Source of the DNA: an uncultured Synechococcus sp.
GTDB lineage: Bacteria > Cyanobacteriota > Cyanobacteriia > PCC-6307 > Cyanobiaceae
Reading direction: 5' to 3'
DNA: 64,000 nucleotides
Assembly (NCBI GenBank): GCA_913057985.1
Contig: CAJXPL010000003.1
Location: forward strand, 1-64,000
Shown: positions 11,918 to 51,797 of the stretch, piece by piece
Layout of the letters: each line of letters opens with the position of its first letter
How positions within the stretch are numbered: the stretch's first letter is position 1
Made by a program: the position numbers and the translations under genes
The notes under the pieces: model-generated
Told to the model about the DNA's origin: nothing
What the model saw: the letters and a program-made list of their open reading frames with translations, nothing else
Database searches by the model: none

Positions 11918-13137
11918 ACCAGCAGTCCGGCCTTGGGTGTGGGGCTGGGAATCAGCTGCAGCGCCAGGTCTTGATCAGGCTGCAGCTGCAGCTCCACCGC
12001 CTGCAGCAGTCCCAACGCCATCAGGCGGATCTCCAGTTCCGCCAGTGCCTTGCCCAGGCAGACCCGCTCGCCACCACCGAAGGGCAGCAGCGTCTGTTTG
12101 AACGAGCCATCCAGGTGGCGTTGCGGCCTGAATGCCGCCAGATCCTCGTCATTACCGGCCGACGTCGGGCTCAGCACCACCTGAATCACGCTGCCTTCGG
12201 GAACGGCCACCCCCGCCAACTCGATCGGTGCCAGGCTGCGCCGGAAAAAGCCTCCCACCGGCGGCGTCAGCCGCATCACCTCAAGAACCGTTGCGTCCAA
12301 CCGTGGTGATGCGGTCTCGCTCGCTAATCCATCGCGCAACCAGCTCTCCACCTCGGGGTTGAGCAGCAGCGCACGGAACAGGCAGCTCAGCGATGAGGCC
12401 GTTGTCTCGTAGCCGGCGAACAGCAACAGCAGCAGCTGTTCGGCCAGGTCGTCATCGTCCAGGGGAATGCCGGCTTCATCCAAACCGCCGCTCAGCAGAT
12501 CCAGGCCGCCTTGGTTGGTGCCCGCCTGGAGCACGCCCTTGATCCGCTTCAGCAGCCGTTGGCGCGCCGCCATCGCCTTGGCGAAGGGGGTGCCGGGAAT
12601 CGCCAGGGGAATTGAGAACAGGGCCCGGGTCCAGATCTCGAAGTCGGCGAACAGGGCATCACGGTTGGCGCCATCCAGCCCCAGCACCGTGGTGGCGATC
12701 ACGGCAAATGCGAAGCGCCGCATCCGTGCCGCCAGCGGCAGCGCTGTGGTGCTGGTGATCAGCTCCTGGCAGAGCTCCTCCACCATCTGCTCGATCGACG
12801 GGGTGTAGCGCGCCAGTGCTGCGCTGGAGAACAGTTGCCCCACCACCCGACGGCGGGCTTTGTGGCCGGGGCCGTTGCGGTTGGCCAGCGATTGGCTGCC
12901 CAGCAGTTGCCGCACGCTCTCGGGCCACCAGCCCTCCAGGGATTCGCCCTGGCCAAGCAGATCACCGATGGCCCGTTCGCCGCGGATGAACACCATTCGC
13001 TGGGCCAGCAGCTTGGTTTCGAACACATCGCCGTGGGCCTCAAAGCGCCGCTGGGCGAAATCCGCCTGGGTGAAGAAGGCCAGGGTTTCCCCCAGTCCGC
13101 TCACGGCGCCCGTGCTGGGGAGGGGGGTGGTGGCCAT
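11899..13137 (-). CDS. cytochrome P450 (CYP120-like)
   Basis: The 412-residue haem monooxygenase shows the I-helix oxygen-binding motif AGYETTASS near residue 241, an ExxR motif in TVLEVMRLTPP near 290, and the haem loop FGGGERVCLGKALAELE near 355, with Cys as iron ligand. It resembles CYP120, a cyanobacterial retinoid hydroxylase, but substrate is uncertain. It needs an electron donor such as ferredoxin, not encoded next to it. Both neighbours are convergent or divergent, so it is probably transcribed alone. Confidence 0.9.
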   Translation of the reverse strand: MATTPLPSTGAVSGLGETLAFFTQADFAQRRFEAHGDVFETKLLAQRMVFIRGERAIGDLLGQGESLEGWWPESVRQLLGSQSLANRNGPGHKARRRVVGQLFSSAALARYTPSIEQMVEELCQELITSTTALPLAARMRRFAFAVIATTVLGLDGANRDALFADFEIWTRALFSIPLAIPGTPFAKAMAARQRLLKRIKGVLQAGTNQGGLDLLSGGLDEAGIPLDDDDLAEQLLLLLFAGYETTASSLSCLFRALLLNPEVESWLRDGLASETASPRLDATVLEVMRLTPPVGGFFRRSLAPIELAGVAVPEGSVIQVVLSPTSAGNDEDLAAFRPQRHLDGSFKQTLLPFGGGERVCLGKALAELEIRLMALGLLQAVELQLQPDQDLALQLIPSPTPKAGLLVQATAR

Positions 13138-13219
13138 CGCGGCTTGGTGTGAGCTGCCGTTCTAGGTCTGACAGTGCTGCAGGCGCTGGCTATCCCAAGG
13201 GGTGTGCAGCGCGATCTTT

Positions 13220-13471
13220 GTGGAACTCAAGTCTCTGGTCGTGGTGCTGGTCGCTCATCTGGTCAGCGCCGGCCTGTCGAAAACCGTTGCCGCCCAGAAG
13301 GCACGCAACAGCAACCGCTGGGCTGTTGCGGGTTTTCTCTTTCGGCCGTTGGGTCTGATCGCCGCCGTGGGCATGCCGGACCGGCATCAGATCGTTTATC
13401 TGCGCTACCTGGCCGAGCAGCAGGGTTACCAACCCCGCCATGCCTGCGGTGGCCAGAAGGGCGAAACCTGA
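13220..13471 (+). CDS. small membrane protein, hypothetical
   Basis: About 83 residues beginning with GTG (ELKSLVVVLVAHLVSAGLSK) and a second hydrophobic stretch (WAVAGFLFRPLGLIAAVGM). The C-terminus is polar. There is an in-frame GTG six codons upstream at 13202. No family recognised. It is convergent with the lipocalin-like gene, two bases apart. Confidence 0.5.
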   Translation: MELKSLVVVLVAHLVSAGLSKTVAAQKARNSNRWAVAGFLFRPLGLIAAVGMPDRHQIVYLRYLAEQQGYQPRHACGGQKGET

Positions 13472-13473
13472 AT

Positions 13474-13929
13474 TCAGCGGCAGCGCTGAAAACGAACAAT
13501 GCTGCGGGTGAGCCCTTTCTCGGGCCAGTTGGGCATCACCCGCCAGGGGGTGTGCACCGTGAGCACGTCGCCCTCGATCGCAAAAAAGCGGGTCTGCTCC
13601 GTGCCCACCCATTCCGGATTCCAGGCCACATCCACCTGGGTGATCCAACGGTCACCCTCGAGCCGGTAGGTGCCGGTGTAGGCGATCATGCTGCTCAGCA
13701 GGCTCGATCGCTCCTCCGCGTTGGTCCCCGGTTGACGTCCCTCTGCTGAGAGCATGAAGGAGAGACGACCCTCCGGCGTGAAGATCACATAGCCCGTGGG
13801 GTGCTCGCCCATCGGCGCGAAGCTCTCGCCATTGGACTGCTGTTCAACGTCGTAGCTCAACAGCTGCCAAGCGCCATGAACGGTGGGGGTCGTGATGGCT
13901 TGGGCGGGTTGAACCGAACTGACGCTCAC
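13474..13929 (-). CDS. lipocalin-like domain protein
   Basis: The protein matches the lipocalin-like (Lipocalin_5) pattern: HGAWQLLSYDVEQQSNGE, then HPTGYVIFTPEGRLSFML, AYTGTYRLEGDRWITQVD and NPEWVGTEQTRFF. Such domains form a beta barrel; many are of unknown function. The start is uncertain. A GTG at 13929 leaves a short lead before the domain, while the open frame continues upstream to 14274 without family similarity. Confidence 0.6.
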   Translation of the reverse strand: MSVSSVQPAQAITTPTVHGAWQLLSYDVEQQSNGESFAPMGEHPTGYVIFTPEGRLSFMLSAEGRQPGTNAEERSSLLSSMIAYTGTYRLEGDRWITQVDVAWNPEWVGTEQTRFFAIEGDVLTVHTPWRVMPNWPEKGLTRSIVRFQRCR

Positions 13930-14378
13930 AACGAAATCTGTTTCTGCGCGGCAACCTATCGATCGTGATCCGGCTTCGACAGCCCGAATCAGCACATTGC
14001 TGCGCGATTGATGCCATTGGATGCCGATCCAGTAACAACAACAACGAAACTGATCAGCGGGCCGGAGCGTGGCGGTGGCTGGAGGGGGCAGTTGGCTGAG
14101 CCGGGTAGGAGTGATCGGTCCTGATTGAGACCGAGCCCGTGCTTCCAGAGCCTGGATCCGCTTGGAAATGTGCGATGTGCTGTCGGCTCGTGCGCACCAA
14201 CAATTCGAACTCATGCGACTCATTTCTGGAGGCAACTGTTTGCTGCTGATGGCTGTCTCAAACCATCCACACATGCTGAATCTTTGAGTTCACAGCAAAT
14301 CACCAGAATTCAGCTCTTGTTTCCCTTGAAATTTGCAAAACATGGGCTCTAATAGAGATGTCACGTCTTTATAGACCC
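13930..14378. other. 450-base stretch without a convincing gene
   Basis: Only an extension of the lipocalin frame on the minus strand crosses here, and it does not look like protein. The last 80 bases are AT-rich and contain the leader of the AbrB-like gene, including an interrupted palindrome CTCTAATAGAG at 14347. The promoter of that gene must lie here. Confidence 0.5.
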
Positions 14379-14744
14379 ATGCTTACCGGAGCTGATTTGC
14401 TCAACCGCGTTAAGGAACTTGGCGATTGTGCCAAGACAGACCTGGCGAGAGGCTGTGGATACGTCGTCACCAAAAAAGACGGTTCTGAGCAGGTGAAATT
14501 CACCGCGTTCTATGAGGCTCTGCTTGAAGCCAAGGGCCTGTCATTCTCCACGGGTGGATCCGGCGTTGGTAAAGGCGGCCGCAAGCTGTCCTACAAAGCT
14601 GTGGTTCAGGGCAACGGCAATCTTTTGATCGGAAAGGCCTACACCGCTCTGCTGGAACTGCAGCCCGGTGATGAATATGAGATCAAGCTTGGACGCAAGC
14701 AGATCCGTCTGGTTCCCGTTGGCGGCTCCGAAGAAGAGGATTGA
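14379..14744 (+). CDS. cyanobacterial AbrB-like transcriptional regulator (cyAbrB)
   Basis: The 121-residue protein matches cyAbrB closely: MLTGADLLNRVKELGD, then CGYVVTKKDGSEQVKFTAFY, KGGRKLSYKAVVQGNGNL and LGRKQIRLVPVGG. Unlike Bacillus AbrB, the cyanobacterial type carries its DNA-binding domain at the C-terminus. These are abundant regulators of carbon/nitrogen balance and stress genes. The start at 14379 matches the family rather than the upstream ATG at 14358. A terminator follows. Confidence 0.92.
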   Translation: MLTGADLLNRVKELGDCAKTDLARGCGYVVTKKDGSEQVKFTAFYEALLEAKGLSFSTGGSGVGKGGRKLSYKAVVQGNGNLLIGKAYTALLELQPGDEYEIKLGRKQIRLVPVGGSEEED

Positions 14745-14771
14745 TCGCCGGTTCGGCTGCAACACCATTCT

Positions 14772-14810
14772 CCCCGTGGTTCCCTTAGGTTCCACAGGGA
14801 TTTTTTTTTG
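14772..14810 (+). terminator. rho-independent terminator of the cyAbrB gene
   Basis: CCCCGTGG pairs with CCACAGGG (one mismatch) and is followed by a run of nine T. It ends just before the next small gene at 14817. Confidence 0.75.
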
Positions 14811-14816
14811 ACTCCG

Positions 14817-15008
14817 ATGCCCTATCAACCCACAAAGGAGCATCTGGACCATCAGATTCCAGACGCGTTCAAGAGCATCAACAGCTTGATGCGTCAGCTG
14901 AAGCAGGACATCGGCATGGATGACCGCTACATCGCCCTCATGCTTGATGCGCTCTCGCGGGAGTATTCCGCCAAGCAGCCGATCCGAGAAGGTTTCGGCT
15001 TTCGCTGA
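14817..15008 (+). CDS. small hypothetical protein
   Basis: The 63-residue, mostly helical protein (MPYQPTKEHLDHQIPDAFKS, then INSLMRQLKQDIGMDDR) is soluble. The ATG at 14817 lies directly after the terminator T-run, so it either has a promoter inside the cyAbrB 3' region or depends on read-through. An upstream in-frame TTG at 14808 adds three residues. Confidence 0.6.
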   Translation: MPYQPTKEHLDHQIPDAFKSINSLMRQLKQDIGMDDRYIALMLDALSREYSAKQPIREGFGFR

Positions 15009-15084
15009 ACATCAAGCGGCGAGTTGAGCACCTGTTGCTTTCAAGCTGTTGCTATCAACCGGTGGAATGGCGTCTCCTCCACCC

Positions 15085-41529: not shown

Positions 41530-41712
41530 ATGAGCTTCACCCTTCCGGGTCTTCTCCCTTGGCGCTTCAGGATCGTGTTGATCGGTCAGCAGGTGGTTCT
41601 TGAGGCTTCGTCTGAGGATCAGCAGCTGAGCACGGTTCTTGAACCTGGTGGAAGCCGCATTCGGCGTGGCTACGACCTGATCAAGGCTCCGCAATGTGCG
41701 TTGATCCGGTGA
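41530..41712 (+). CDS. small hypothetical protein (60 aa)
   Basis: MSFTLPGLLPWRFRIVLIGQ, then EASSEDQQLSTVLEPGG. The start is preceded by AGGATCT. Its stop (TGA) overlaps the GTG of the broken hydrolase gene by 4 bases (GTGA), a normal translational coupling. This suggests the two were one operon before the mobile element came in. Confidence 0.55.
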   Translation: MSFTLPGLLPWRFRIVLIGQQVVLEASSEDQQLSTVLEPGGSRIRRGYDLIKAPQCALIR

Positions 41713-41783
41713 GCAGCACGTCTCGCCTCACTCAGCCCGTCGTCATCTTCGGTGGTTTTCTGAATGCCGAAGTCCGCCAGTAA
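41709..41783 (+). pseudogene. 5' stub of a split alpha/beta-hydrolase gene
   Basis: GTG at 41709 opens a 24-codon frame (SSTSRLTQPVVIFGGFLNAE) that ends at 41781-41783. The same sequence in slightly diverged form (LDQPVVILGGFLITQEAY) is the N-terminus of the hydrolase body at 51,100. This is the left half of the gene interrupted by the mobile element; the sequence identity between the two copies marks the integration site (see findings). Confidence 0.7.
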
Positions 41784-41814
41784 ATGCAAGGGATCTCATG
41801 CCCACCCGGCAGTG

Positions 41815-41845
41815 ATGGGCCTAGTTTGGGCCTACCTCCGGCATG
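41815..41845 (+). repeat. left end repeat (integrase-site-like)
   Basis: ATGGGCCTAGTTTGGGCCTA is repeated with two changes at 50975, in the same direction. In both places CCGGCAT follows a few bases later. The position close to each end of the element suggests integrase arm or attachment sites. Confidence 0.55.
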
Positions 41846-41992
41846 CCGTGGCGATGCCGGCGATCGCCGTTATCCTCTGGTTACGACGCAGGCTCGCCCA
41901 CTAGGGCACCCCTGCACTGGGAGAAGTCGAAATCCCAGAGTGGACGCCTTCCCGGCTCCGGTCACCCACCCCCTGATGAGCCATCAGCTCGG

Positions 41993-42205
41993 ATGAAGGA
42001 TCGGATCACCAGAAATCGGAAGGGCGTCCTGCACGTCAACGGCACGCCTGTGCGGGTGCCGAAGAGTGCTGACTACACCGACACCGAGGCCCTGCAGTAC
42101 GTCGAGAAATGTGCTGAGTGGGCCCCAGGTGCCCGGTGGGACTTCTCGATGCTGGAGATCGGAGCACTGAATCGGATAGCTGAGGCCAAGGGGATTAACG
42201 ACTAA
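41993..42205 (+). CDS. small hypothetical protein of the element (70 aa)
   Basis: MKDRITRNRKGVLHVNGTPV, then SADYTDTEALQYVEKCAEWA. Basic N-terminus and acidic middle. No family recognised. First gene of a plus-strand run of element genes (41993-45390). Confidence 0.55.
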   Translation: MKDRITRNRKGVLHVNGTPVRVPKSADYTDTEALQYVEKCAEWAPGARWDFSMLEIGALNRIAEAKGIND

Positions 42206-42210
42206 GCCCC

Positions 42211-42387
42211 ATGCCTTTTACGGCCAACAACAACGGAGCTGCTCCGCTGGCGCAGCCCCCTGTCCGCACGCATGTCGTGCCGGATTCCAAGTCTCCACGT
42301 ATCAACGCGAAGCCTGAGGTTGTCGAACGCGCCTACGACAACAGCGTTCAGGAACCTCTGACGGCCAGCGAGCAGGGGTGCGACTGA
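42211..42387 (+). CDS. small hypothetical protein of the element (58 aa)
   Basis: MPFTANNNGAAPLAQPPVRT, then RINAKPEVVERAYDNSVQEP. Probably disordered. It begins 5 bases after the previous stop and ends 1 base before the HTH gene, so it is part of one operon. Confidence 0.5.
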   Translation: MPFTANNNGAAPLAQPPVRTHVVPDSKSPRINAKPEVVERAYDNSVQEPLTASEQGCD

Positions 42388-42388
42388 C

Positions 42389-42661
42389 ATGACAACCCTC
42401 GAGCTTCAGCTCGAGCAGACCAGGGCGGAGCTGAGGCGACTCAGCTCTGCTGTGGAGCAGCTCGTAGCCACCACCCCCCAGCGCAACAAGCAGTGGCTGG
42501 AACCTCGAGAGCTCGCCCAGCTGTTGGGCATCTCGACTCGCACCCTCTGCCAGTGGCGCGTCGACGGACGGTTCCGTCCCATCTCGGTCCGTAGGCACGG
42601 GCGGGGTCATCAGTTCCATGCCGATTGGGCTCTAGCTGATGCCCAGGAGGTGTCCCGTTGA
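42389..42661 (+). CDS. excisionase/MerR-like helix-turn-helix protein
   Basis: The 90-residue protein has a short coiled coil (LELQLEQTRAELRRLSSAVE) followed by a winged helix-turn-helix (WLEPRELAQLLGISTRTLCQ, then WRVDGRFRPI), typical of excisionase or DNA-binding regulators of mobile elements. It may direct excision with the integrase or regulate element genes. Its TGA overlaps the ATG of the next gene. Confidence 0.7.
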   Translation: MTTLELQLEQTRAELRRLSSAVEQLVATTPQRNKQWLEPRELAQLLGISTRTLCQWRVDGRFRPISVRRHGRGHQFHADWALADAQEVSR

Positions 42662-42852
42662 TGGAGACGTTCCTGCCGCCGCTGGGCAGTCGCAACACCG
42701 TGCCCGCCGAGGACTGCGAAAGCGCAGCTCGGTGGGAAGCGTTGCGGGCCCACTACTACCGCCAGGTAGAGGTCCATCCCGAGTTCGCCGACTACTGCCT
42801 GGCGCTGGCTGCGTATTACGCCCAGCGGGATGCAGATCGGCCTACGGCCTGA
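42661..42852 (+). CDS. small hypothetical protein of the element (63 aa)
   Basis: METFLPPLGSRNTVPAEDCE, then ARWEALRAHYYRQVEVHPEF. Helical, aromatic-rich. One-base overlap with the HTH gene. No family recognised. Confidence 0.5.
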   Translation: METFLPPLGSRNTVPAEDCESAARWEALRAHYYRQVEVHPEFADYCLALAAYYAQRDADRPTA

Positions 42853-42862
42853 CCAAGAAAAA

Positions 42863-42883
42863 CCCGGCTGAAGGGAAGCCGGG
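42863..42883 (+). terminator. stem-loop between small genes and primase
   Basis: CCCGGCT pairs perfectly with AGCCGGG over a 7-base loop. There is no T-run after it, so it may be a processing or attenuation structure rather than a full terminator. Confidence 0.4.
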
Positions 42884-42906
42884 CCGTTCACTAAGCCTTC
42901 CTAATT

Positions 42907-45390
42907 ATGCCCAAGAATCCTGTCCAGAAGGGCGGTCTGCCATTGGTGGACTGGCCCCAGGTAGATGCCTACCTAAAGCTCACAGAAGCCCCCGGCGAGC
43001 GGTTGCTCGTGCTGTTCCCACCCAAGAAGGGTGGTGGCGGCGGCATCCACTTCGACATCACCGATGGGGTGATTCCGAAGGATGAGGTGGAGACCGGCCT
43101 GCGGAATAACCGCCACCACAGCCTCGGCATCGTGGTGAACCCAGCCCTGCCGAAACCGGCTGACTGGGGGACCAAGCCTGAGCACTTCACCAAGAACGCA
43201 CGGCTCAAGGTTTGGGGTGCCAGCAATGACCACATCAACTGCAGCCGGGTGATCTTCATCGAGGGCGATGGAGGCCTGACCGATCAGGAACAGATGCAGG
43301 TCGTTCATGACGCCCTGCCGGTTACTCCAACATTTGTGCTGCGGACCGGCGGCCAGTCGCTGCACTTCTATTTCCGGGTTGACGAGGAGTTGACCCCAGC
43401 CAAGTTCACGGAGCTGCAGAAGCGTCTGAATCTGGCCTGCTCCAAGGTGAGCGAGGCGTATGGGGCGGATGACTCCATCAGTAGCCCATGCCAGGTCATG
43501 CGACTGCCGGGTGGTGTGCACGGCGGTGTCTACAAGGACCACGGCAGGAAAGAACACGCCCGCATGGTCCTTGTGAGCGGACGTGTCTACGGCCTCCAGT
43601 TGCTGGAGAAATTCCTGCCGCCGCTGGAGGACAGCCGGCCTCGGTCATCACCTCGGAAGGGCTTCTTCAGTGAGGACAGCCACTGGTTGAAGGAGGAGGG
43701 ATGGTTCTCCCGTCGCTCCCGCGAAGAACAGCACCGCCTGGCCGTTGAGATGGCTCAATGTCTGCCCAAGCGTGAGCAGACCGGGCAGGGCGATTACGCC
43801 ATCTGCATCTCCGCGCTTTATGCCCTGGTGGGTCACTTCGGGGCTGAAGAGGCCGGCGCCATTTGCCTGGAGGCCGGCTGGGAGTCCGAGAACTGGGATC
43901 CCATCGAGCGCATCACCACGATCAACAGCACCCCCACCAACACCATCGGAACCTTCATCGAGAAGGCCCGGCAGGGCGGGTGGCGGTTACAGGAGGAGCT
44001 GCTCGAGGCCGCGGCTAAGCCGATGCCGGTGGAGCGGCCCATCACCTTGGAGGAGATGTTTCCCGCCTCGGTGGCTGCAGACCTGCGGCGGATCACCCGC
44101 TACATGCCGTGGCCAGACACGCTGATCATCACCAGCTTCCTGACCACGGTGTCGGCGGCGGTACGGCTCGGCTGCACCATCGAGTTGATCGCGGAGACCG
44201 ACTTCGAGGTGCCGCTGAACCTCTACCACTGCGTTGTGGGTGACACCGGCACGAGGAAAACCCCGGCAGAGCGGGCGCTCATCAAGAAGCCGCTGGCCCC
44301 TCTGAAGAAGGAGCTGCGGCGTCAGTACCGGGAGAAGTTGCTGGCCTACAAGGCCCAGCTCGCTGCAGCTGAAGACGGTGATCCGCCAACTCCCCCGATG
44401 AATCCCTGCCTGGACATCAGTGATGCCACGCAGGAAGCGATGGAGGAGCAGCTAATGGCTCAGGAGCAGTGGCGATTGGGTTTGCTGGTGCTGAAGGACG
44501 AGCTCGCCGGTTGGTTTGCTGCGCTCGATCAGTACAAGCCGGGCGGCAAGTCCAAGGCCGGAAGCGCCCAGGCCAAGCAGATGCTCGAGTTCTTCGACGG
44601 CAGGGGGTTTTTCTCCAAGCGTGTTGGGGAGAGCCGTTACTGCGACGACACCAAGATCACCATCTCTGGAGCGATTCAGCCAGACGTGCTGCGGGGCATG
44701 CAGGACGACAAGGATGCCGATGGCCAGTGGGCTCGGTTCTTGTTCTCCCCATTGCCAGCCAAGGTCGTGCGGTTGCCGGACACCAGGAAAGCAGAGGAGC
44801 TCAAGGCCATCGCAATCGCTGAGGAAGCCCTGAGCGTGATACCGCTGAGGGTTCACCGGATGCCCTCGGTGTTCCTGACCCTCGACGCCGAAGCGTTGAA
44901 GGTGTTCTGCGATTACGACTACCGGGTGTCGGAGGCGGCGCAGAAGGCAATGCTTCCGAGCCATGCAGCTCTGCTGAACAAGTCACCCGGAAAGGTCGGA
45001 CGAATTGCCGGCCTGCTGTGGGTGCTCGATTACGTCACCGATAAGACCGGTGATGGTGAGGTGGGTGTCGAGTTCGTCCAGCGAGCCATACGGCTTGTTG
45101 AACACCTCGACCGGTACGCCATGCAGTTCAACGTGGAGGCCAATCAGACCGCCAAGGAGAAGTGCATGTGGCGCCTCCACCGCAATGCGGGGAAAACCAA
45201 GGACTGGATCCCACAGCGGACACTCCGCAACAACTGCAGCCCCGCCGAGAAGGAGCGGTTCGATGCCGCCGAGATGCAGGAGATGCTCCAGGAGCTAGCC
45301 AAAGCCGGTTATGGCGAGGTCCGCTCTGGTCCCCGCGGTGGCATGGACTATCGATTCCTCCTCCCCAAAGAGGGAACGCGGGAGGTGTGA
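42907..45390 (+). CDS. primase-helicase-like replication protein (DUF3987)
   Basis: The 827-residue protein has two parts. Residues 1-240 look like a primase-polymerase (AEP) domain: IFIEGDGGLTDQEQM, FVLRTGGQSLHFYFRVDEEL and ISSPCQVMRLPGGVHGGVYK. Residues 380-800 match DUF3987: CVVGDTGTRKTPAERALIKK is the Walker A loop near residue 445, and WRLGLLVLKDELAGWFAALD carries the Walker B-like acidic residues. Similar two-part proteins start replication in plasmids, satellites and phages. It is followed by an iteron-rich region. It is the largest gene of the element. Confidence 0.8.
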   Translation: MPKNPVQKGGLPLVDWPQVDAYLKLTEAPGERLLVLFPPKKGGGGGIHFDITDGVIPKDEVETGLRNNRHHSLGIVVNPALPKPADWGTKPEHFTKNARLKVWGASNDHINCSRVIFIEGDGGLTDQEQMQVVHDALPVTPTFVLRTGGQSLHFYFRVDEELTPAKFTELQKRLNLACSKVSEAYGADDSISSPCQVMRLPGGVHGGVYKDHGRKEHARMVLVSGRVYGLQLLEKFLPPLEDSRPRSSPRKGFFSEDSHWLKEEGWFSRRSREEQHRLAVEMAQCLPKREQTGQGDYAICISALYALVGHFGAEEAGAICLEAGWESENWDPIERITTINSTPTNTIGTFIEKARQGGWRLQEELLEAAAKPMPVERPITLEEMFPASVAADLRRITRYMPWPDTLIITSFLTTVSAAVRLGCTIELIAETDFEVPLNLYHCVVGDTGTRKTPAERALIKKPLAPLKKELRRQYREKLLAYKAQLAAAEDGDPPTPPMNPCLDISDATQEAMEEQLMAQEQWRLGLLVLKDELAGWFAALDQYKPGGKSKAGSAQAKQMLEFFDGRGFFSKRVGESRYCDDTKITISGAIQPDVLRGMQDDKDADGQWARFLFSPLPAKVVRLPDTRKAEELKAIAIAEEALSVIPLRVHRMPSVFLTLDAEALKVFCDYDYRVSEAAQKAMLPSHAALLNKSPGKVGRIAGLLWVLDYVTDKTGDGEVGVEFVQRAIRLVEHLDRYAMQFNVEANQTAKEKCMWRLHRNAGKTKDWIPQRTLRNNCSPAEKERFDAAEMQEMLQELAKAGYGEVRSGPRGGMDYRFLLPKEGTREV

Positions 45391-45600
45391 GGGAAGGTGG
45401 GGTTCCCGCGTGAGAACCGCTGGGCCCCGTGCCTTCTCAGGTAATGAGGGAAGGAGGGAACTAACCCTTCTTCTTCCATTGCTGAGGAAACAGACCGAGG
45501 CCCGGCAGCTCATAGAGATACCCCCCTTCCCGCCTTCCCGCATAAGCCCCACTCCGACTGCGCCGGAACGGTTCTTACGAGGGAAGAAGGGCTCCCGCCT
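45370..45600. other. GGGAAGG iteron region, candidate replication origin of the element
   Basis: The segment holds GAGGGAA(C/G) at 45370, 45389, 45446, 45454 and 45579, and the reverse form CCTTCCCGCCTTCCCG at 45525. GAGGGAAGG occurs exactly twice. An inverted repeat CGCGGGA/TCCCGCG lies at its left end. It follows the primase gene directly. No ORF of note is present. Confidence 0.45.
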
Positions 45601-45669
45601 AGGGGAAATTGGCCCTCTTAAAAAGCCGATTCACCCCAGGAAAATGGGTGTGATGGCGTGATCGTGGCC

Positions 45670-45873
45670 ATGAATCACCTGATAGCGCTGCAGCAACTCC
45701 AGGCCCGGCTGGACCGTGTTGCTCCTGCAGTGGTGCCGCCCACGATGCGGTGTTTCACCATTCACGACGGCGAGGACGATCAGTTGCCTGATGACCTTGG
45801 TCGTTGGGATCTGGTTGTCCGCATTGAGGGGCCGCGGCCCTTTCATAACGATGCGGCCATTCAGAAGTTCTGA
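45670..45873 (+). CDS. small hypothetical protein of the element
   Basis: MNHLIALQQLQARLDRVAPA, then CFTIHDGEDDQLPDDLGRWD. Acidic C-terminal half. A GTG 3 codons upstream is an alternative start. No family recognised. Convergent with the recombinase at 45895. Confidence 0.5.
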   Translation: MNHLIALQQLQARLDRVAPAVVPPTMRCFTIHDGEDDQLPDDLGRWDLVVRIEGPRPFHNDAAIQKF

Positions 45874-45894
45874 TTCGGCCCTTAATAGGGCCAG

Positions 45895-46449
45895 TTAGCC
45901 GAAGGCTTCGACCACGGCGACCTTGTGTTCTTCGCGGACGGCCAAATAACGCTCCAATGCCGCCAGCGACGTATGGCCGCTGATGCTTTGGAGGTGTCGC
46001 AGGCTGATGCCCTTGTCATTGGCCGCCGTTAAGCAGCTCCGCCGGAACGAGTGGGTGCTGACGCCTGAGAGGCCCAGCTGTTCACACGTTGCCCGCAGCT
46101 GTTTATCGAACGCTTGTCGGCTCATTGGCCTGCCAACCACTCCACCCGGGACGATGAAGTCCGATGGGCTTGGGTTGGTCTCAGCCTTCCACCGTTTGAG
46201 TACATCAAGCAGCTGAGGGGCCAAGGGCACCTCCCTCGATGTTTTCGTTTTGGTGGTGGCTGCAGTGAAGAGGATGTGTGTATCAGAAATTGCTGCCCAC
46301 GTGAGCAACCGAGCCTCGCTGATCCTCGCGGCTGTGTAGCGGAGGATTGTGGCGAGGACTCGATGAGGCCCAGCAGGCAGCGCATCGATCAAGTTGTCCA
46401 GGTGCTGAGGACTCAAGACCGACGCCTGGCCGAAGCGGTTTTGCTTCAT
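45895..46449 (-). CDS. short tyrosine recombinase (catalytic domain)
   Basis: The 184-residue protein contains the catalytic core only: ILRYTAARISEARLL holds the first Arg, TKTKTSREVPLAP the Lys, THSFRRSCLTAANDK the HxxR, and ISGHTSLAALERYL the His and the nucleophile Tyr. An N-terminal core-binding domain is missing. Such short recombinases occur in cyanophage-related elements. Role, integration or resolution, is uncertain. Together with the integrase at 49766 the element has two recombinases. Confidence 0.85.
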   Translation of the reverse strand: MKQNRFGQASVLSPQHLDNLIDALPAGPHRVLATILRYTAARISEARLLTWAAISDTHILFTAATTKTKTSREVPLAPQLLDVLKRWKAETNPSPSDFIVPGGVVGRPMSRQAFDKQLRATCEQLGLSGVSTHSFRRSCLTAANDKGISLRHLQSISGHTSLAALERYLAVREEHKVAVVEAFG

Positions 46450-46804
46450 TGATCAGGAGTGGTGCAAGTGAGCAGAGCAACGTTTGCAGAACGGGTCTGA
46501 ATCGGTTGCTCTTCCTTACAGAAAAGCACCTGGTGCTCACTTTCGGGTGGTTTTTATTGCAATCAGGAGCACAAGATATCTAATTGCCAATCATTAGACC
46601 TAGACGGATTATTGATATCACTGATGCGAATGTTATTCTATTCGTTGATTGTGATTAGTGATATCACTATCTGTAATCGGTGGGGGTAGGATTGCGATTT
46701 CTGCTTTTCTCTTCGAAGCGCGGGTAGTTCTCACAAACAATATGCCAGCGATGGAGGTTATTTGTCAACATCTGGCGTAGAATTGCAGTGTTGCACTGCT
46801 TTTG
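46450..46804. promoter_or_regulatory. AT-rich control region with operator-like palindromes
   Basis: This 350-base gap between the divergent recombinase and the small gene row is the most AT-rich part of the element. It holds TGATATCACT at 46613, the perfect palindrome AGTGATATCACT at 46657 (inside a longer imperfect dyad) and the hairpin AGCACC-T-GGTGCT at 46525. No gene is seen in it. It probably carries promoters for both directions under one repressor. Confidence 0.55.
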
Positions 46805-47053
46805 ATGGATTCCGATTGGAACCTGTCTAAAGAAGATTGGTTGCTGCTTGCTAGGTGCAATAAATGCGCCCGGCAGTTGTTCCCACAGAGCCAGCGCATG
46901 GCCGACCAGTGGTCTGAGCATGCTTTCCAACGTTTCAAGACCGAGGGGGTATCCCCCGAGTCTTTGAGGGACCGGAGAGCACCAGGCATCACGCAGTTGA
47001 TCGCCAATCGCAGGGCAAATCCAACCCTTCGTCGGCTGTATCGCCTCCCATGA
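46805..47053 (+). CDS. small hypothetical protein of the element (82 aa)
   Basis: MDSDWNLSKEDWLLLARCNK, then CARQLFPQSQRMADQWSEHA. A CNKC pair near residue 18 could be half of a metal site. It overlaps the next gene by 4 bases. No family recognised. Confidence 0.5.
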   Translation: MDSDWNLSKEDWLLLARCNKCARQLFPQSQRMADQWSEHAFQRFKTEGVSPESLRDRRAPGITQLIANRRANPTLRRLYRLP

Positions 47054-47532
47054 CTAACCAAGCCCAGCGGTTCATTGAGCTCCACAGCCGGATGTTCCCG
47101 GAGCAGCCAATTCCACCCCTGCCTCGCCACCCCGAAGAGCTGGGGCTGAGTGTTCAGCTGGCTCTACGAGATGCCGACGCTGCTTGGTGGCAAAACCAGT
47201 TCGGTGGTCGCGATGACCGCGGAGAGCAGGCCCGGCTGCCAGCAGATGTTGAGCAACGGATGCTGGCTGGCACTCCTAATCCCGAGGACGAGGGCCCTCT
47301 GCGTAGAGCCAACATGGACTACTACGCCAACGCTGCAGCTGCACAGCGGGAGCAGGTGATAGAGCGGGCTCGGGAGGCCACGAGAGCTCGTGAGAAAGCG
47401 ATCTTTCAACACCAAGCTCAGAAATCGGCTGAGTTCCGGAGCATGGGAATCCTTGGCCGGATGGCCGCTTCTCCTCTCAGTGCGAATGCGATCGCTCAAG
47501 CCCGTGCCCAATGGGGCATCACAGGCGAATGA
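47050..47532 (+). CDS. hypothetical protein of the element (160 aa)
   Basis: MTNQAQRFIELHSRMFPEQP, then a long charged helical half (EQVIERAREATRAREKAIFQ). No family recognised. Same-strand overlaps with both neighbours by 4 bases indicate an operon; the helical region may form a coiled coil. Confidence 0.5.
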   Translation: MTNQAQRFIELHSRMFPEQPIPPLPRHPEELGLSVQLALRDADAAWWQNQFGGRDDRGEQARLPADVEQRMLAGTPNPEDEGPLRRANMDYYANAAAAQREQVIERAREATRAREKAIFQHQAQKSAEFRSMGILGRMAASPLSANAIAQARAQWGITGE

Positions 47533-47966
47533 CGGCGCTGGCTCGTCACACCGGGAGACCCACCCGGGAGGAATCCGGTGAGATTCCCCCCAAGGTGCGG
47601 GCTGCCCTAACCCTCAGGGCCGCAGGCCACAGCTGGAAGCAGTGCTCCGACATGACCGGGGCCAGCTACCGGAACCTCCTGAAGTGGAAGGATCTGCCGA
47701 TAGCTGAGGCCTACGTCGAGGAGAAGGTGAAGGAGGCCCTGTCGGGCACCTACAACAAGCTCATCAGCGCGGGCCCAGCTGTTGCCGATCGGCTGCTGTC
47801 GATTGCGCTGGACCCAACGGTGAAGAGCTATGCCGCGGTGAGCGCTTGTGAGGCGGTGATCCGCAGCATCGAGCGAGGGGTGCTGGACCGCGAGATGCGG
47901 GAGCACATCACCAAGCTGCGTGAGCAGATGGCCCAGCTGGAGCAGGGACGACCGATTGATGTTTGA
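47529..47966 (+). CDS. small-terminase-like (TerS-type) helix-turn-helix protein
   Basis: The layout fits small terminase subunits of the phBC6A51/HTH type: an N-terminal helix-turn-helix (VRAALTLRAAGHSWKQCSDM, then GASYRNLLKWKDLP), and a C-terminal helical part with ISAGPAVADRLLSIALDPTV and AAVSACEAVIRSIERGV. If it is TerS-like, it could redirect helper-phage packaging to the element, but no large terminase is present. An upstream ATG at 47511 is possible. The assignment is by pattern only. Confidence 0.5.
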   Translation: MTALARHTGRPTREESGEIPPKVRAALTLRAAGHSWKQCSDMTGASYRNLLKWKDLPIAEAYVEEKVKEALSGTYNKLISAGPAVADRLLSIALDPTVKSYAAVSACEAVIRSIERGVLDREMREHITKLREQMAQLEQGRPIDV

Positions 47967-48231
47967 GCCGCGGCGGCTGACCGAGGAGGAAGCGCAATGG
48001 CGTGCCTCCTGCGGTTGGTTCGTGCCTAGCGACTTCGTTCAGGTCGTGGTAGAAAACCAGCACGGGAGTCCAGCTCCCCCTACCTGCGGTCCTGCCGCTG
48101 AATCACATGGAAACCATCGACTTCAACGTCCGGTGCTGGACCTATGCGGGTCCAACAGCACTAGAGGACATGAATCTCGGCATTGCTGCCGGTGCCGTCA
48201 AGGACGGGAGAAACAAGCCCTCCGAGGCTGA
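47959..48231 (+). CDS. uncertain small protein of the element
   Basis: The first 30 residues (MFEPRRLTEEEAQWRASCGW, then FVPSDFVQVVVE) look like protein, but the rest runs in a different frame over the following gene and has an unnatural composition. It may be a truncated or frameshifted gene. Confidence 0.3.
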   Translation: MFEPRRLTEEEAQWRASCGWFVPSDFVQVVVENQHGSPAPPTCGPAAESHGNHRLQRPVLDLCGSNSTRGHESRHCCRCRQGREKQALRG

Positions 48232-48511
48232 GTTCGGCGAGTGCATCGCCATTGTTTTGTGCAATGCAGCCCCGCGAGGAGAGGAGCCTCGGTACTTCGC
48301 ACATCTCGGTGAGATCACCGGGTTGTTCGTGGGTGATGCGGATCTCCTCTGGGCTAATTCAGGCAATAAACCAAACGGCATTGCCTATTCGATGAAGCCT
48401 GTCACCAGGGTTGTTCCACTGCCACGAGATGTGGCTGGTGAGGTATTCCAGGCAGGCATCAACCAGGCGAACCGATCGCGTGTCGTTCACTACCTGCTCA
48501 TGCATGGCTGA
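48107..48511 (+). CDS. hypothetical protein of the element (134 aa)
   Basis: METIDFNVRCWTYAGPTALE, then GECIAIVLCNAAPRGEEPRY. The composition is that of a soluble alpha/beta protein. Overlaps the next gene start by 8 bases. No family recognised. Confidence 0.55.
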   Translation: METIDFNVRCWTYAGPTALEDMNLGIAAGAVKDGRNKPSEAEFGECIAIVLCNAAPRGEEPRYFAHLGEITGLFVGDADLLWANSGNKPNGIAYSMKPVTRVVPLPRDVAGEVFQAGINQANRSRVVHYLLMHG

Positions 48512-48665
48512 GCAGATGAAAGACCCCAAGCAGCCTGTGCGCTACTCAGTAGCGATAACCCCTCAGCTGAAGTCAGAACTTGACCGTCGCCGGAAGGAGT
48601 GGGGCCTGAGCAGTCGGGGTGAGGTGCTTGAGCGCCTTCTCGGCTGGATGGTTCAGGAGCCTTAA
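48504..48665 (+). CDS. ribbon-helix-helix-like small protein (53 aa)
   Basis: MAEQMKDPKQPVRYSVAITP (a beta strand) followed by QLKSELDRRRKEWGLSSRGE and VLERLLGWMV (two helices) is the layout of ribbon-helix-helix DNA-binding proteins of the CopG/Arc type. It could be the repressor of the TGATATCA operators, though that is speculation. Confidence 0.5.
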   Translation: MAEQMKDPKQPVRYSVAITPQLKSELDRRRKEWGLSSRGEVLERLLGWMVQEP

Positions 48666-48689
48666 GCGTTCGATTGTCTAGGTGCGCGG

Positions 48690-49766
48690 CTAGGTGTCGA
48701 CCTCGCCAGCCGCTCCCTGTCCGTATAACCCTCCACGTCCTTCCTCAAACAGCAGGAACAACTCGCCGTCGTATCCCAGCTCTCGCATCATGTATGCCCA
48801 TTCGACCTCGTCAGCTGGTTCGTAGTTATCGCTTTTGCTGATGTTCTTGGCAGCCCAAAGGGGTTGATAATTCCTCCAGTTGAAACCTACATAGCATTGC
48901 TCTGAGGGCTGGCCATTTTCACTCAACTGAAAGCTCTCAAGTGGTCGGACGTGATCGAGATGCCACTCTCCATAGTTATCTAGTGTCATACCTTCTTCGA
49001 ACTGACTCGATATCCACTCAACAAACTCATCCCAAGTGCAGTCCAAAAGGGCGAGAGTTTCCTCTGGTTTTCGTGCATTGTTTTCTCTAAGAGAATGAGC
49101 GATGCGGGAGCTTAGATTGCGTCTCATCGCAAACTCTGGATCAGCTGCATAACGAGCTTTCACATAAATAGCACCTTTATCGCGTTGTTCTTGTTGTTGG
49201 CGGAATCTTTTTCTCCAGGCAAGAAGCTCGGGAGTTCCTTGTCTGCGCCTGACGTCTTCACGCTTGCAACCTCGACATTGTCCGCTGTTTGCGTATCGAA
49301 GTTCTATGTGATTATTTTTGCAGGCTTTTCCATTAAAGTAAAACTGCAGCCCTTCTTCTTTGGCTATCCGTTGTGATCCTGGATAGCTAAACCATCCTTC
49401 GGGCACCTTGCCGCGATGTACTTCTCTTTCTTCTCGATTCTGTCGGTCAAACTTAATCGCTGCACCCTTATTGCCATCGGTTTGAAGCCCCCTTCTTCTG
49501 ACTGCTGAGGTCACAGCCCGTTTTGTTTTTCCTAGATGGTCAGCGATCTCTTGCTGGGTGAGACGGCTGACATTTTTAATAAGAAAATCGACCTCTTGGT
49601 CTGTCCATTCCGAAGGTTTTTCAGCTCTTCTGATCCCTTTTCTTTTCATCCTGTTAGCTACTGATGCTGAGGTTACTCCCAGCGATTCAGCCATTTCTTT
49701 GTTCGACATCCGCATGACGTTGTCGGCCAAAAATTGATCTTCTTCTTCTGTCCATTGCTTCGGCAT
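48690..49766 (-). CDS. HNH endonuclease with two N-terminal SANT/Myb-like repeats
   Basis: The 358-residue protein has two DNA-binding repeats at the start: QWTEEEDQFLADNVMRMSNK then ASVANRMKRKGI, and EWTDQEVDFLIKNVSRLTQQ then RAVTSAVRRRGL. A zinc-binding C-x2-C pair in SGQCRGCKRED precedes the HNH module WHLDHVRPLESFQ then FNWRNYQPLWAAKNISKSDN. The gene is distinctly AT-rich compared with its neighbours. It starts in a 1-base overlap with the integrase stop (minus strand), so the two are co-translated. Likely a homing-type or element-specific nuclease. Confidence 0.75.
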   Translation of the reverse strand: MPKQWTEEEDQFLADNVMRMSNKEMAESLGVTSASVANRMKRKGIRRAEKPSEWTDQEVDFLIKNVSRLTQQEIADHLGKTKRAVTSAVRRRGLQTDGNKGAAIKFDRQNREEREVHRGKVPEGWFSYPGSQRIAKEEGLQFYFNGKACKNNHIELRYANSGQCRGCKREDVRRRQGTPELLAWRKRFRQQQEQRDKGAIYVKARYAADPEFAMRRNLSSRIAHSLRENNARKPEETLALLDCTWDEFVEWISSQFEEGMTLDNYGEWHLDHVRPLESFQLSENGQPSEQCYVGFNWRNYQPLWAAKNISKSDNYEPADEVEWAYMMRELGYDGELFLLFEEGRGGLYGQGAAGEVDT

Positions 49767-51055
49767 CAGCTCGCCTCCGCCAGCCTTGCCATGGCAGCTC
49801 TTAGGTCAGTAGCTGTCATCCAGCGCTGGTAACGCTGCTCGTGCATCTGCAGGGAGTGCCCCATGCTCTGGGCGCACAGGCTTTGGTTCACGTTGGCTTC
49901 GATTGACCGCACGGCCCAGCGGTGCCGCATGTCATAGATATCGAATCGATAGTCGGCTCCGAAGACCTCGGCGATGGTCTCTTTGTAGATCTGCGCCTGA
50001 CGGGCACCGCGCCATGCAGCCACCCACCTCTCGCTGTCAGCGGAGTCGAACTGGTTGGGCTTGATCCACCTGGCCTCCTCGAGCGGCCCCGTTGGGATCT
50101 CCACCTCGTGAAGGGCCCAGCGGTCGATCCATTCCTTCGGGTACGCGAAGCAGGTTCGTGGTGCTGGCAGGCGCAACTTCTCCTTGATTGAGAGGCAATC
50201 GGCGGTGCCGTCCTTATGAAGCTGAAGGCTGGGCACCTCACCGGGTCTGCACCCGAATGTCGCCATCGCTGCGAGGCACCATCCCCACTTCGTGGGCCTG
50301 ATGACATCGATGAGTTGCACCAGCTGCTCATCGGTCGGGAGCTCTCGCTCCTGGGGCTTGTAGTTGCCCCGCAGCATGCGGAGCTGTTCGCTGCCCTCCA
50401 CCCCTGACTTCTTCAGCAGCCGCTCGAACTGCATGCAGGTCATCTGCCTAGTCCTGCTGTCTGGTTCCGTTGTTTCCAGCAGGGTTCGCTGCAGAAGACC
50501 AAGGCTCAGGACACCGTTGGCAGGCAAGCGGTTGAGGATGTGCTGATAGCGCTGCCAGGTGAGCTCGGTGTTGGGCAGTCGCTTCCGGGTCTGCCAGTAG
50601 TCCTTCTCATATGTGGCGATCGCTTCGGCGACGGTGATCGGCTTCTCAGGGATGACCTGGCCCGGCTGATGCTTTGCCCGCAGCACCACCGTGGTGGGAT
50701 CGATCCCTTCGCTGATCGCTTGGTGCATCGCTGTGGCGATCTGCTCCGCTTCGATCAATCCGCCCGGCGTTGCAGGACAACCGAGGCCAGCCTTCCGCTG
50801 TTTCCTCACCCCAGCTGCATCGGTCCAGGTGCCTCTGACACCGATGGTCCCCCTGCCGGGCACGACATACAGAGTCAGCTTTGCCCCGCGATTGCGCAGG
50901 GCTTGGTTAGTAGTGGTGAGGTCCAGGTCCAACCGGGCTGACTCTTGGTGGTTTATTTGGGGATTTGGCGCGAAATGGGCCTGATTTGGGCCTAATTTCT
51001 TGCCGGCATCATCCCGCATAATCCGGAAGGAGGCCACCACCTCATCCCTACTCAA
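49766..51055 (-). CDS. int: tyrosine integrase of the element
   Basis: The 429-residue protein shows an N-terminal arm-binding and core-binding region (TLYVVPGRGTIGVRGTWTDA, then ITVAEAIATYEKDYWQTRKR) and the catalytic residues: ATFGCRPGEVPSL (first Arg), DIYDMRHRWAVRSI (His-x-x-Arg) and SMGHSLQMHEQRYQRW (His and Tyr). It should join the element to the hydrolase gene. The N-terminal 40 residues run through the direct-repeat region at 50975, so the true start may be the TTG at 50933. Coupled to the HNH gene. Confidence 0.9.
   Translation of the reverse strand: MSRDEVVASFRIMRDDAGKKLGPNQAHFAPNPQINHQESARLDLDLTTTNQALRNRGAKLTLYVVPGRGTIGVRGTWTDAAGVRKQRKAGLGCPATPGGLIEAEQIATAMHQAISEGIDPTTVVLRAKHQPGQVIPEKPITVAEAIATYEKDYWQTRKRLPNTELTWQRYQHILNRLPANGVLSLGLLQRTLLETTEPDSRTRQMTCMQFERLLKKSGVEGSEQLRMLRGNYKPQERELPTDEQLVQLIDVIRPTKWGWCLAAMATFGCRPGEVPSLQLHKDGTADCLSIKEKLRLPAPRTCFAYPKEWIDRWALHEVEIPTGPLEEARWIKPNQFDSADSERWVAAWRGARQAQIYKETIAEVFGADYRFDIYDMRHRWAVRSIEANVNQSLCAQSMGHSLQMHEQRYQRWMTATDLRAAMARLAEAS
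50975..51010 (+). repeat. right end repeat (integrase-site-like)
   Basis: ATGGGCCTGATTTGGGCCTA matches the left end repeat at 41815 in 18 of 20 bases, again followed by CCGGCAT. More TTTGG(G/C) repeats precede it from 50955 on. The region lies 115 bases from the predicted junction with the hydrolase gene. Confidence 0.55.
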
Positions 51056-51068
51056 TCCCCCAGAACCG

Positions 51069-51797
51069 TTGTCAGAGCAGAAGAAATTAGATCCTAGAAC
51101 GGTTTCGCTGGATCAGCCCGTAGTGATCCTCGGTGGCTTTCTGATCACGCAGGAGGCCTATCTCCCCCTCGCTGATTGGATTGATCAGGCCACCGGTGCT
51201 GCGGTGCGCATCGTGCCTGCGTCCAAATTGGATTGGCTGGCCACCAGCTGGGCCTTTGGTTGGCGTCGCCTGCTTGATCGCGTTGATGCCGCTGTGCGCG
51301 AGCTTCAGGGCCTGTCATCGACCGGGCGGGTCACCTTGATCGGCCACAGTTCCGGTGGGGTGATGTTGCGGCCCTATCTGGCGGATCAGACCTTTCTGGG
51401 CCGCCGTTTCAACGGTGCAGCCCGATGCAATCGCCTGATCACCCTGGGCAGTCCCCATCAGGCCCTGCGTGCCACACCGCTGCGGGCTCGCGTGGATCGT
51501 GAGTTTCCGGGTTGCCCTGAAGCCGATCGGGTGGATTACGTCGCGGTTGCGGGTCGGCTTGATCCGCTGGGAGCGAATGCATCCAATTTTTCGCGCCGCA
51601 GCGCTGCCCGCAGCTATCGCCAGATCATGGGCGACCCGGATCTGCAGGGGGACGGTCTGGTTCCCCTTCCATCAGCCCTGCTGCGGGATGCCCGTTCGAT
51701 TGAGCTGGCTGATACGGCCCACGGCGGATTGTTCGGCCAAAGCTGGTACGGCTCCACCGATCGCATCGAGCGCTGGTGGTCGCAGCTCGGCGACTGA
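51069..51797 (+). CDS. alpha/beta hydrolase (lipase-like), 5' end replaced by element
   Basis: The nucleophile elbow is VTLIGHSSGGVMLRPYL (GxSxG), and ARSIELADTAHGGLFGQ carries the catalytic His. The N-terminus (LDQPVVILGGFLITQEAYLP) continues the stub at 41709, so the gene was split by the element. The current upstream part comes from element DNA and offers TTG starts at 51069 or 51000. Expression, if any, would depend on an element promoter. Confidence 0.8.
   Translation: MSEQKKLDPRTVSLDQPVVILGGFLITQEAYLPLADWIDQATGAAVRIVPASKLDWLATSWAFGWRRLLDRVDAAVRELQGLSSTGRVTLIGHSSGGVMLRPYLADQTFLGRRFNGAARCNRLITLGSPHQALRATPLRARVDREFPGCPEADRVDYVAVAGRLDPLGANASNFSRRSAARSYRQIMGDPDLQGDGLVPLPSALLRDARSIELADTAHGGLFGQSWYGSTDRIERWWSQLGD

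Follow-up and report, generated by a model that had tools for sequence, protein, structure and literature searches.

Integrative elements of picocyanobacteria with tyrosine recombinases, some of them proposed to be phage satellites, are known as tycheposons (PMC10187409, PMC10872708, PMC11389934). Gram-negative phage-inducible chromosomal islands (PICIs) such as EcCICFT073 have an integrase, an excisionase and a primase and capture the packaging of a helper phage; EcCICFT073 carries the cosN of its helper with a different cosB, and has no small terminase subunit, TerS (PMC6092414). Phage-inducible chromosomal minimalist islands (PICMIs), which are small marine satellites integrated at fis, contain an integrase, an AlpA-like gene and a DUF3987 primase and lack virion genes, and no terS was identified in their prototype (PMC10803314). 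Integration into the 5' end of a protein gene, with a replacement 5' end supplied by the element and imperfect att repeats, has been described for dusA-associated islands and prophages (PMC4482086). The element described here lies near the front of an alpha/beta-hydrolase gene in a 64,000-nucleotide stretch of DNA, referred to as the window, from an uncultured Synechococcus sp. (contig CAJXPL010000003.1 of assembly GCA_913057985.1, positions 1 to 64,000). It is probably an integrative phage satellite that encodes a TerS of its own and shares a packaging-type site with its helper.

Like the tycheposons, the element is picocyanobacterial and carries tyrosine recombinases, and elements related to it lie beside tRNA genes. 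However, whereas tycheposons integrate at tRNA genes, it occupies the 5' end of a protein gene, and no tRNA gene was found in the window. It resembles Gram-negative PICIs in its integrase, excisionase and primase and, presumably, in the capture of helper packaging, but has a TerS and a phage-like site as well as an additional small recombinase, p83 and p160. The PICI gene order (integrase beside the master repressor stl, then xis, pri-rep, ori and terS) is not followed, the integrase being far from the excisionase and primase genes, and no repressor adjacent to the integrase was seen in the element. The gene set of the PICMIs is present, but the element is integrated in the hydrolase gene rather than at fis and, unlike the PICMI prototype, has a TerS. 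The manner of integration is that of the dusA-associated elements, although the target gene differs; those elements are prophages and genomic islands and are not described as satellites of the present kind (PMC4482086).

The features at the ends of the element are as follows.

41709..41783, + strand: stub, the original 5' end of the hydrolase gene, now orphaned; joined to the body in 10 insert-free genomes
41733..41763, + strand: attL, 31-bp imperfect repeat with the crossover TCGGTGG at 41749-41755, placed by the overlap of the flanks and by allele differences from the empty sites
41815..41834, + strand: putative integrase arm-type repeat ATGGGCCTAGTTTGGGCCTA, left copy, 90 % identical to the right copy
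49766..51055, - strand: tyrosine integrase, 429 amino acids (phrog_1 integrase, E 1e-13), with a homolog of 95 % amino acid identity at the same site in genome G020
50975..50994, + strand: putative integrase arm-type repeat, right copy, also found in G020
51069..51797, + strand: in-frame hydrolase open reading frame (ORF), element-derived at its 5' end (to about 51136) and continuing as the host body; G020 has the same substitute N-terminus
51114..51144, + strand: attR, with the crossover TCGGTGG at 51130-51136, placed in the same way as attL

The sequence-only reading had proposed that a satellite-like mobile element splits the hydrolase gene. The stub, with a GTG start at 41709 and a stop at 41783 (translation ...LTQPVVIFGGFLNAEVRQ*), and the restarted body containing ...LDQPVVILGGFL... 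at about 51108-51797 are both in the sequence as it described them, and the comparison that it suggested, a search of relatives for an intact gene with the exact junction, was successful. In 10 genomes of the same genus (L053-L062) the two window flanks (79-97 % identical) join in one uninterrupted gene. The left-flank match extends up to 41763 and the right-flank match begins at 51114 in most of these, giving an overlap of 31 bp in the empty locus and an imperfect direct repeat in the window (41733-41763 and 51114-51144, 27 of 31 positions identical). Differences between alleles bracket the crossover to the 7 bp TCGGTGG: the relatives with an empty site read ...GTCGTCATCT-TCGGTGG-CTTTCTGATCACG, attL consists of the host left side, TCGGTGG and a T from the element, and attR of element sequence, TCGGTGG and a C from the host. 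A short overlap is usual for tyrosine recombinases, and the 7-bp crossover fits this. The proposed mobile element in a protein gene is thus borne out by an exact insertion of 9,381 bp.

The gene is interrupted as proposed, but it is not simply split, because the element brings 5' coding sequence of its own, and across attR the frame stays open into the host hydrolase body (ORF from TTG at 51069 or upstream). The hydrolase may be expressed from this element-supplied start, although no sigma-70 promoter was seen before it by consensus. The same substitute N-terminus (...SLDQPVVILGGFLIT) was found in G020, where a decayed relative of the element occupies the same site. Decay in place of this lineage would suit an alternative in which the window element has lost its mobility, as a degenerate prophage or ordinary genomic island. 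This is improbable, as all the main genes of the window element are open and many elements share its conserved central module, described below. Nor is simple old vertical descent favoured, because the integrase DNA of the window's genome (G000) and that of G020 are closer to each other (93.8 %) than their host flanks (86-91 %). The window element presumably still moves. In G020, attL and the kept integrase are separated by approximately 1.5 kb of unrelated sequence containing small ORFs (L052 13472-14960), which looks as though its element had decayed or been replaced in part.

The genes and the non-coding site on which the satellite reading rests are the following.

42389..42661, + strand: excisionase/AlpA-type helix-turn-helix (HTH) protein, 90 amino acids (HTH_17, phrog excisionase), 38 % identical to a gene of the candidate-helper contig L174
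42658..42852, + strand: 64-amino-acid protein with relatives in about 20 phage contigs (phmmer E 1e-4 to 0.03), in which they form a conserved small protein of the candidate helpers
42907..45390, + strand: DUF3987 primase/helicase, 827 amino acids (PF13148, E 3e-39), with 40-44 % identical relatives over most of its length in G106, G275 and G003
45895..46449, - strand: small tyrosine recombinase, catalytic domain only, 184 amino acids, R-K-H-R-H-Y intact (PF00589, E 5e-26)
46643..46766, + strand: conserved non-coding satellite site, the core of which (46676-46726) matches the phage site in profile and model cross-searches
46805..47053, + strand: p83, the gene that opens the p83-p160-TerS operon (82 amino acids if started at this ATG), with homologs equally placed in related elements
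47050..47532, + strand: p160, helical protein with homologs in 7 other elements and a confident structure model
47511..47966, + strand: TerS-family protein, 151 amino acids, true start probably further in (23-member family)

Profile matches support the integrase, second recombinase, DUF3987 primase and excisionase-like regulator named in the sequence-only reading, and its label 'TerS-like' was right in kind. Its inventory was incomplete in that p83, directly upstream of p160, and the non-coding site had been overlooked. Four of the 23 members of the TerS family match the terminase small subunit phrog (best 6e-8), and phage TerS structures are among the weak Foldseek matches of the satellite protein, from which the product of 47511..47966 is likely to be a TerS. 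Fold searches with the p160 model gave no match. The catalytic R, K, HxxR, H and Y of the small recombinase are invariant in all 12 aligned members.

The order small recombinase, non-coding stretch, p83, usually p160, and then TerS recurs as a module in at least ten related elements, several of which lie beside tRNA genes (Arg, Ser, Ala, Lys, Pro). The core of the conserved site consists of GGGGGnAGGGTTGCAA, about 20 nt, and CGCGGGGAACTTAC. A site profile made from 11 elements also matched L117, L115, L116, L108 and L118, all outside the profile. When a model of the satellite site (15 elements) was run over 34 genomes of the genus, 15 matches had E below 1e-9; six of these were newly fetched loci, and each of the six falls within the module, of which L241 shows recognisably the recombinase and p83 only. 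The element has what satellites in general have, namely integration with an integrase, replication genes and no virion genes. It also has a TerS-family protein and a site shared with phages, which may act in packaging. The phage satellite suggested at the outset gains support from the TerS family, from the repeated occurrence of the module, several times by tRNA genes, from the lack of virion genes and from the phage-shared site, and the satellite nature of the element is well supported.

A perfect 14-bp palindrome, TAGTGATATCACTA, adjoins the site in the window (46656-46669) and was not seen in related elements. The window's own genome contains a second element (L131, contig C41, about 12900-15030) with a recombinase, site, p83-like gene, p160 (60 % identical) and TerS, approximately 3 kb from a tRNA-Lys gene, and a further DUF3987 primase gene lies in fragments on the small contig C52 (L132). 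Three modules were found in the complete genome G029 (L130, L245), two of which lie no more than about 9 kb apart. In another genus, the TerS gene of G207 (L247 / L123) is 93 % identical but contains an internal stop; no site was detected there, and an integrase remnant and a tRNA-Arg gene are found a few kb away.

The approximately 50-bp site of the window (46676-46726) matches a site just past terS in a family of uncultivated cyanosiphoviruses. The link was found post hoc, from a motif noticed in an alignment, and the cross-searches were run after the motif had been chosen. An exact search of IMG/VR with the site pattern gave two viral contigs, homologous to each other, in which the pattern lies close to a TerS-like gene; these two are not independent, because the pattern was taken from satellites. 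The gene belongs to an abundant family (at least 600 contigs), and the remaining phage contigs were collected by TerS protein, regardless of the site. The bipartite site was present just beyond terS in 77 of the 77 contigs scored (80 were fetched, and the rest had too short a sequence past terS), with one convincing copy in each of the longer contigs.

Each cross-search model was built without sequences of the other group, the phage group having first been found via the satellite-derived pattern. With a phage-only model run over 34 whole genomes, the top 11 matches were all satellite sites (E up to 0.007), including that of the window (E 0.0023); the next match (E 0.027) was not a satellite site. 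A phage-only profile scored the window site at 14.7 bits in the satellite loci, against a best of 9.9 in shuffles, and with a satellite-only profile 34 of 39 matches in the phage loci fell 30-250 bp past terS, many of them individually weak. The satellites L120, L122, L136 and L137 matched the phage model weakly or not at all, and a blastn comparison of the L129 site with named phages produced chance-level matches only. Judged by their sequences, the site core of the phages and that of the satellites are the same.

The site could instead be regulatory (a promoter, operator or replication origin), bound by a helper factor and switching on the TerS operon rather than acting in packaging. It lies directly upstream of the p83-p160-TerS operon in the satellites and adjoins the divergent recombinase gene, the palindrome is close to it in the window, and the phage contigs do not end at it. 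In the long phage contigs it occurs once, beyond the 3' end of terS. Such a position would be odd for a promoter, whereas packaging signals are common in this neighbourhood. This explanation is possible but rather unlikely. It is considerably less probable still that the site belongs to the small recombinase, for resolution or integration, and resembles the phage site only as a by-product, for example of satellites recombining into a phage genome. In all the elements examined the site is adjoined by the recombinase gene, with its catalytic residues invariant, yet no homolog of this recombinase was found in the phage loci, where the site is conserved.

Because its site core is the same as that beside the phage terS, the S-2L-like cyanosiphovirus family is the best candidate for the helper of the satellite. 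Phage contig L158 contains TerL, portal, scaffold, major capsid and connector genes, its major capsid protein being 73 % identical to that of Marine virus AG-345-A17 and 36 % to that of cyanophage S-2L. S-2L is the nearest named cyanophage relative (TerL 43 % identical). The phage terS adjoins TerL, divergent from it, and its product, without a PHROG match, is taken to be TerS from this position and its sequence character. A picocyanobacterial host of the family is supported by one contig of the Prochlorococcus single-cell genome AG-418-M08 (TerL 82 %, portal 74 % and TerS 61 % identical), in which the site is recognisable in its right half only. A further match in a binned proteobacterial metagenome-assembled genome (L235) was treated as weaker because bins can be mixed. 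The excisionase-type and 64-amino-acid genes, both in the left operon of the element, have relatives in the phage family, side by side in L174. Searches of the phage collection for TerS and primase gave no match. TerL genes in the chromosomes of two genomes of the window's genus (G029 and G028, L222 and L223) are possible prophages. These prophage-like genes, 38-39 % identical to TerL of the candidate helper, were rejected as helper candidates because no site was found near them.

Several observations weigh against a satellite packaged by this helper through the shared site. The cultured cyanosiphoviruses S-2L, KBS-S-2A and P-HS2 are without the site, and the window scores a modest 18.9 bits with the phage model. 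No satellite was found in IMG/VR with integrase, primase, two TerS and small recombinase queries, in scans that reached close relatives only. Fixed cos ends at the phage site are unsupported, since none of the 77 phage contigs ends there, and headful (pac-like) initiation fits better, although contig ends are weak evidence on cos versus pac. Profile comparison detected no homology between the satellite TerS and that of the candidate helper, so the two need not bind the same sequence. For this reason a shared core with satellite-specific flanks is favoured: the satellite would have a chimeric packaging site, with the phage-shared core naming the helper and the flanks read by the unrelated TerS, with p83 and p160 as adaptors. 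The chances of this proposal are about even, and EcCICFT073, in which cosN is kept and cosB changed, is a partial precedent (PMC6092414).

As a phage satellite, the element would integrate when its integrase recombines attP through the 7-bp core within the first 20 or so codons of the hydrolase gene, and the substitute 5' coding end carried in attP keeps the host reading frame open. Infection by a helper, for which the S-2L-like phages are the best candidate, may then cause the element to excise, replicate by means of the DUF3987 primase and enter helper capsids, its own TerS steering packaging via the site beside the p83-p160-TerS operon.

The remaining genes of the element are three small ORFs and a nuclease gene.

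41993..42205, + strand: small ORF, 70 amino acids
48107..48511, + strand: ORF for a 134-amino-acid protein
48411..48665, + strand: ORF for an 84-amino-acid small protein, no family match (no PHROG hit)
48690..49766, - strand: HTH and endonuclease VII (HNH)-type nuclease, 358 amino acids (phrog_323, E 3e-21; phrog_1035 endonuclease VII, E 3e-16)

Satellite-like elements have been proposed as a route of gene transfer among the ocean's dominant phototrophs, and to our knowledge no phage that carries those of picocyanobacteria has been named. The present analysis defines a module of recombinase, site and p83-p160-TerS genes, and provides an example of a satellite that displaces the start of a protein gene but supplies another in its place. 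A site in common with a specific and very common phage family makes the question of the carrier experimentally approachable, and offers a sequence-based means of pairing satellites with helpers. If the site is indeed chimeric, a helper of picocyanobacterial satellites would have been named from sequence alone.

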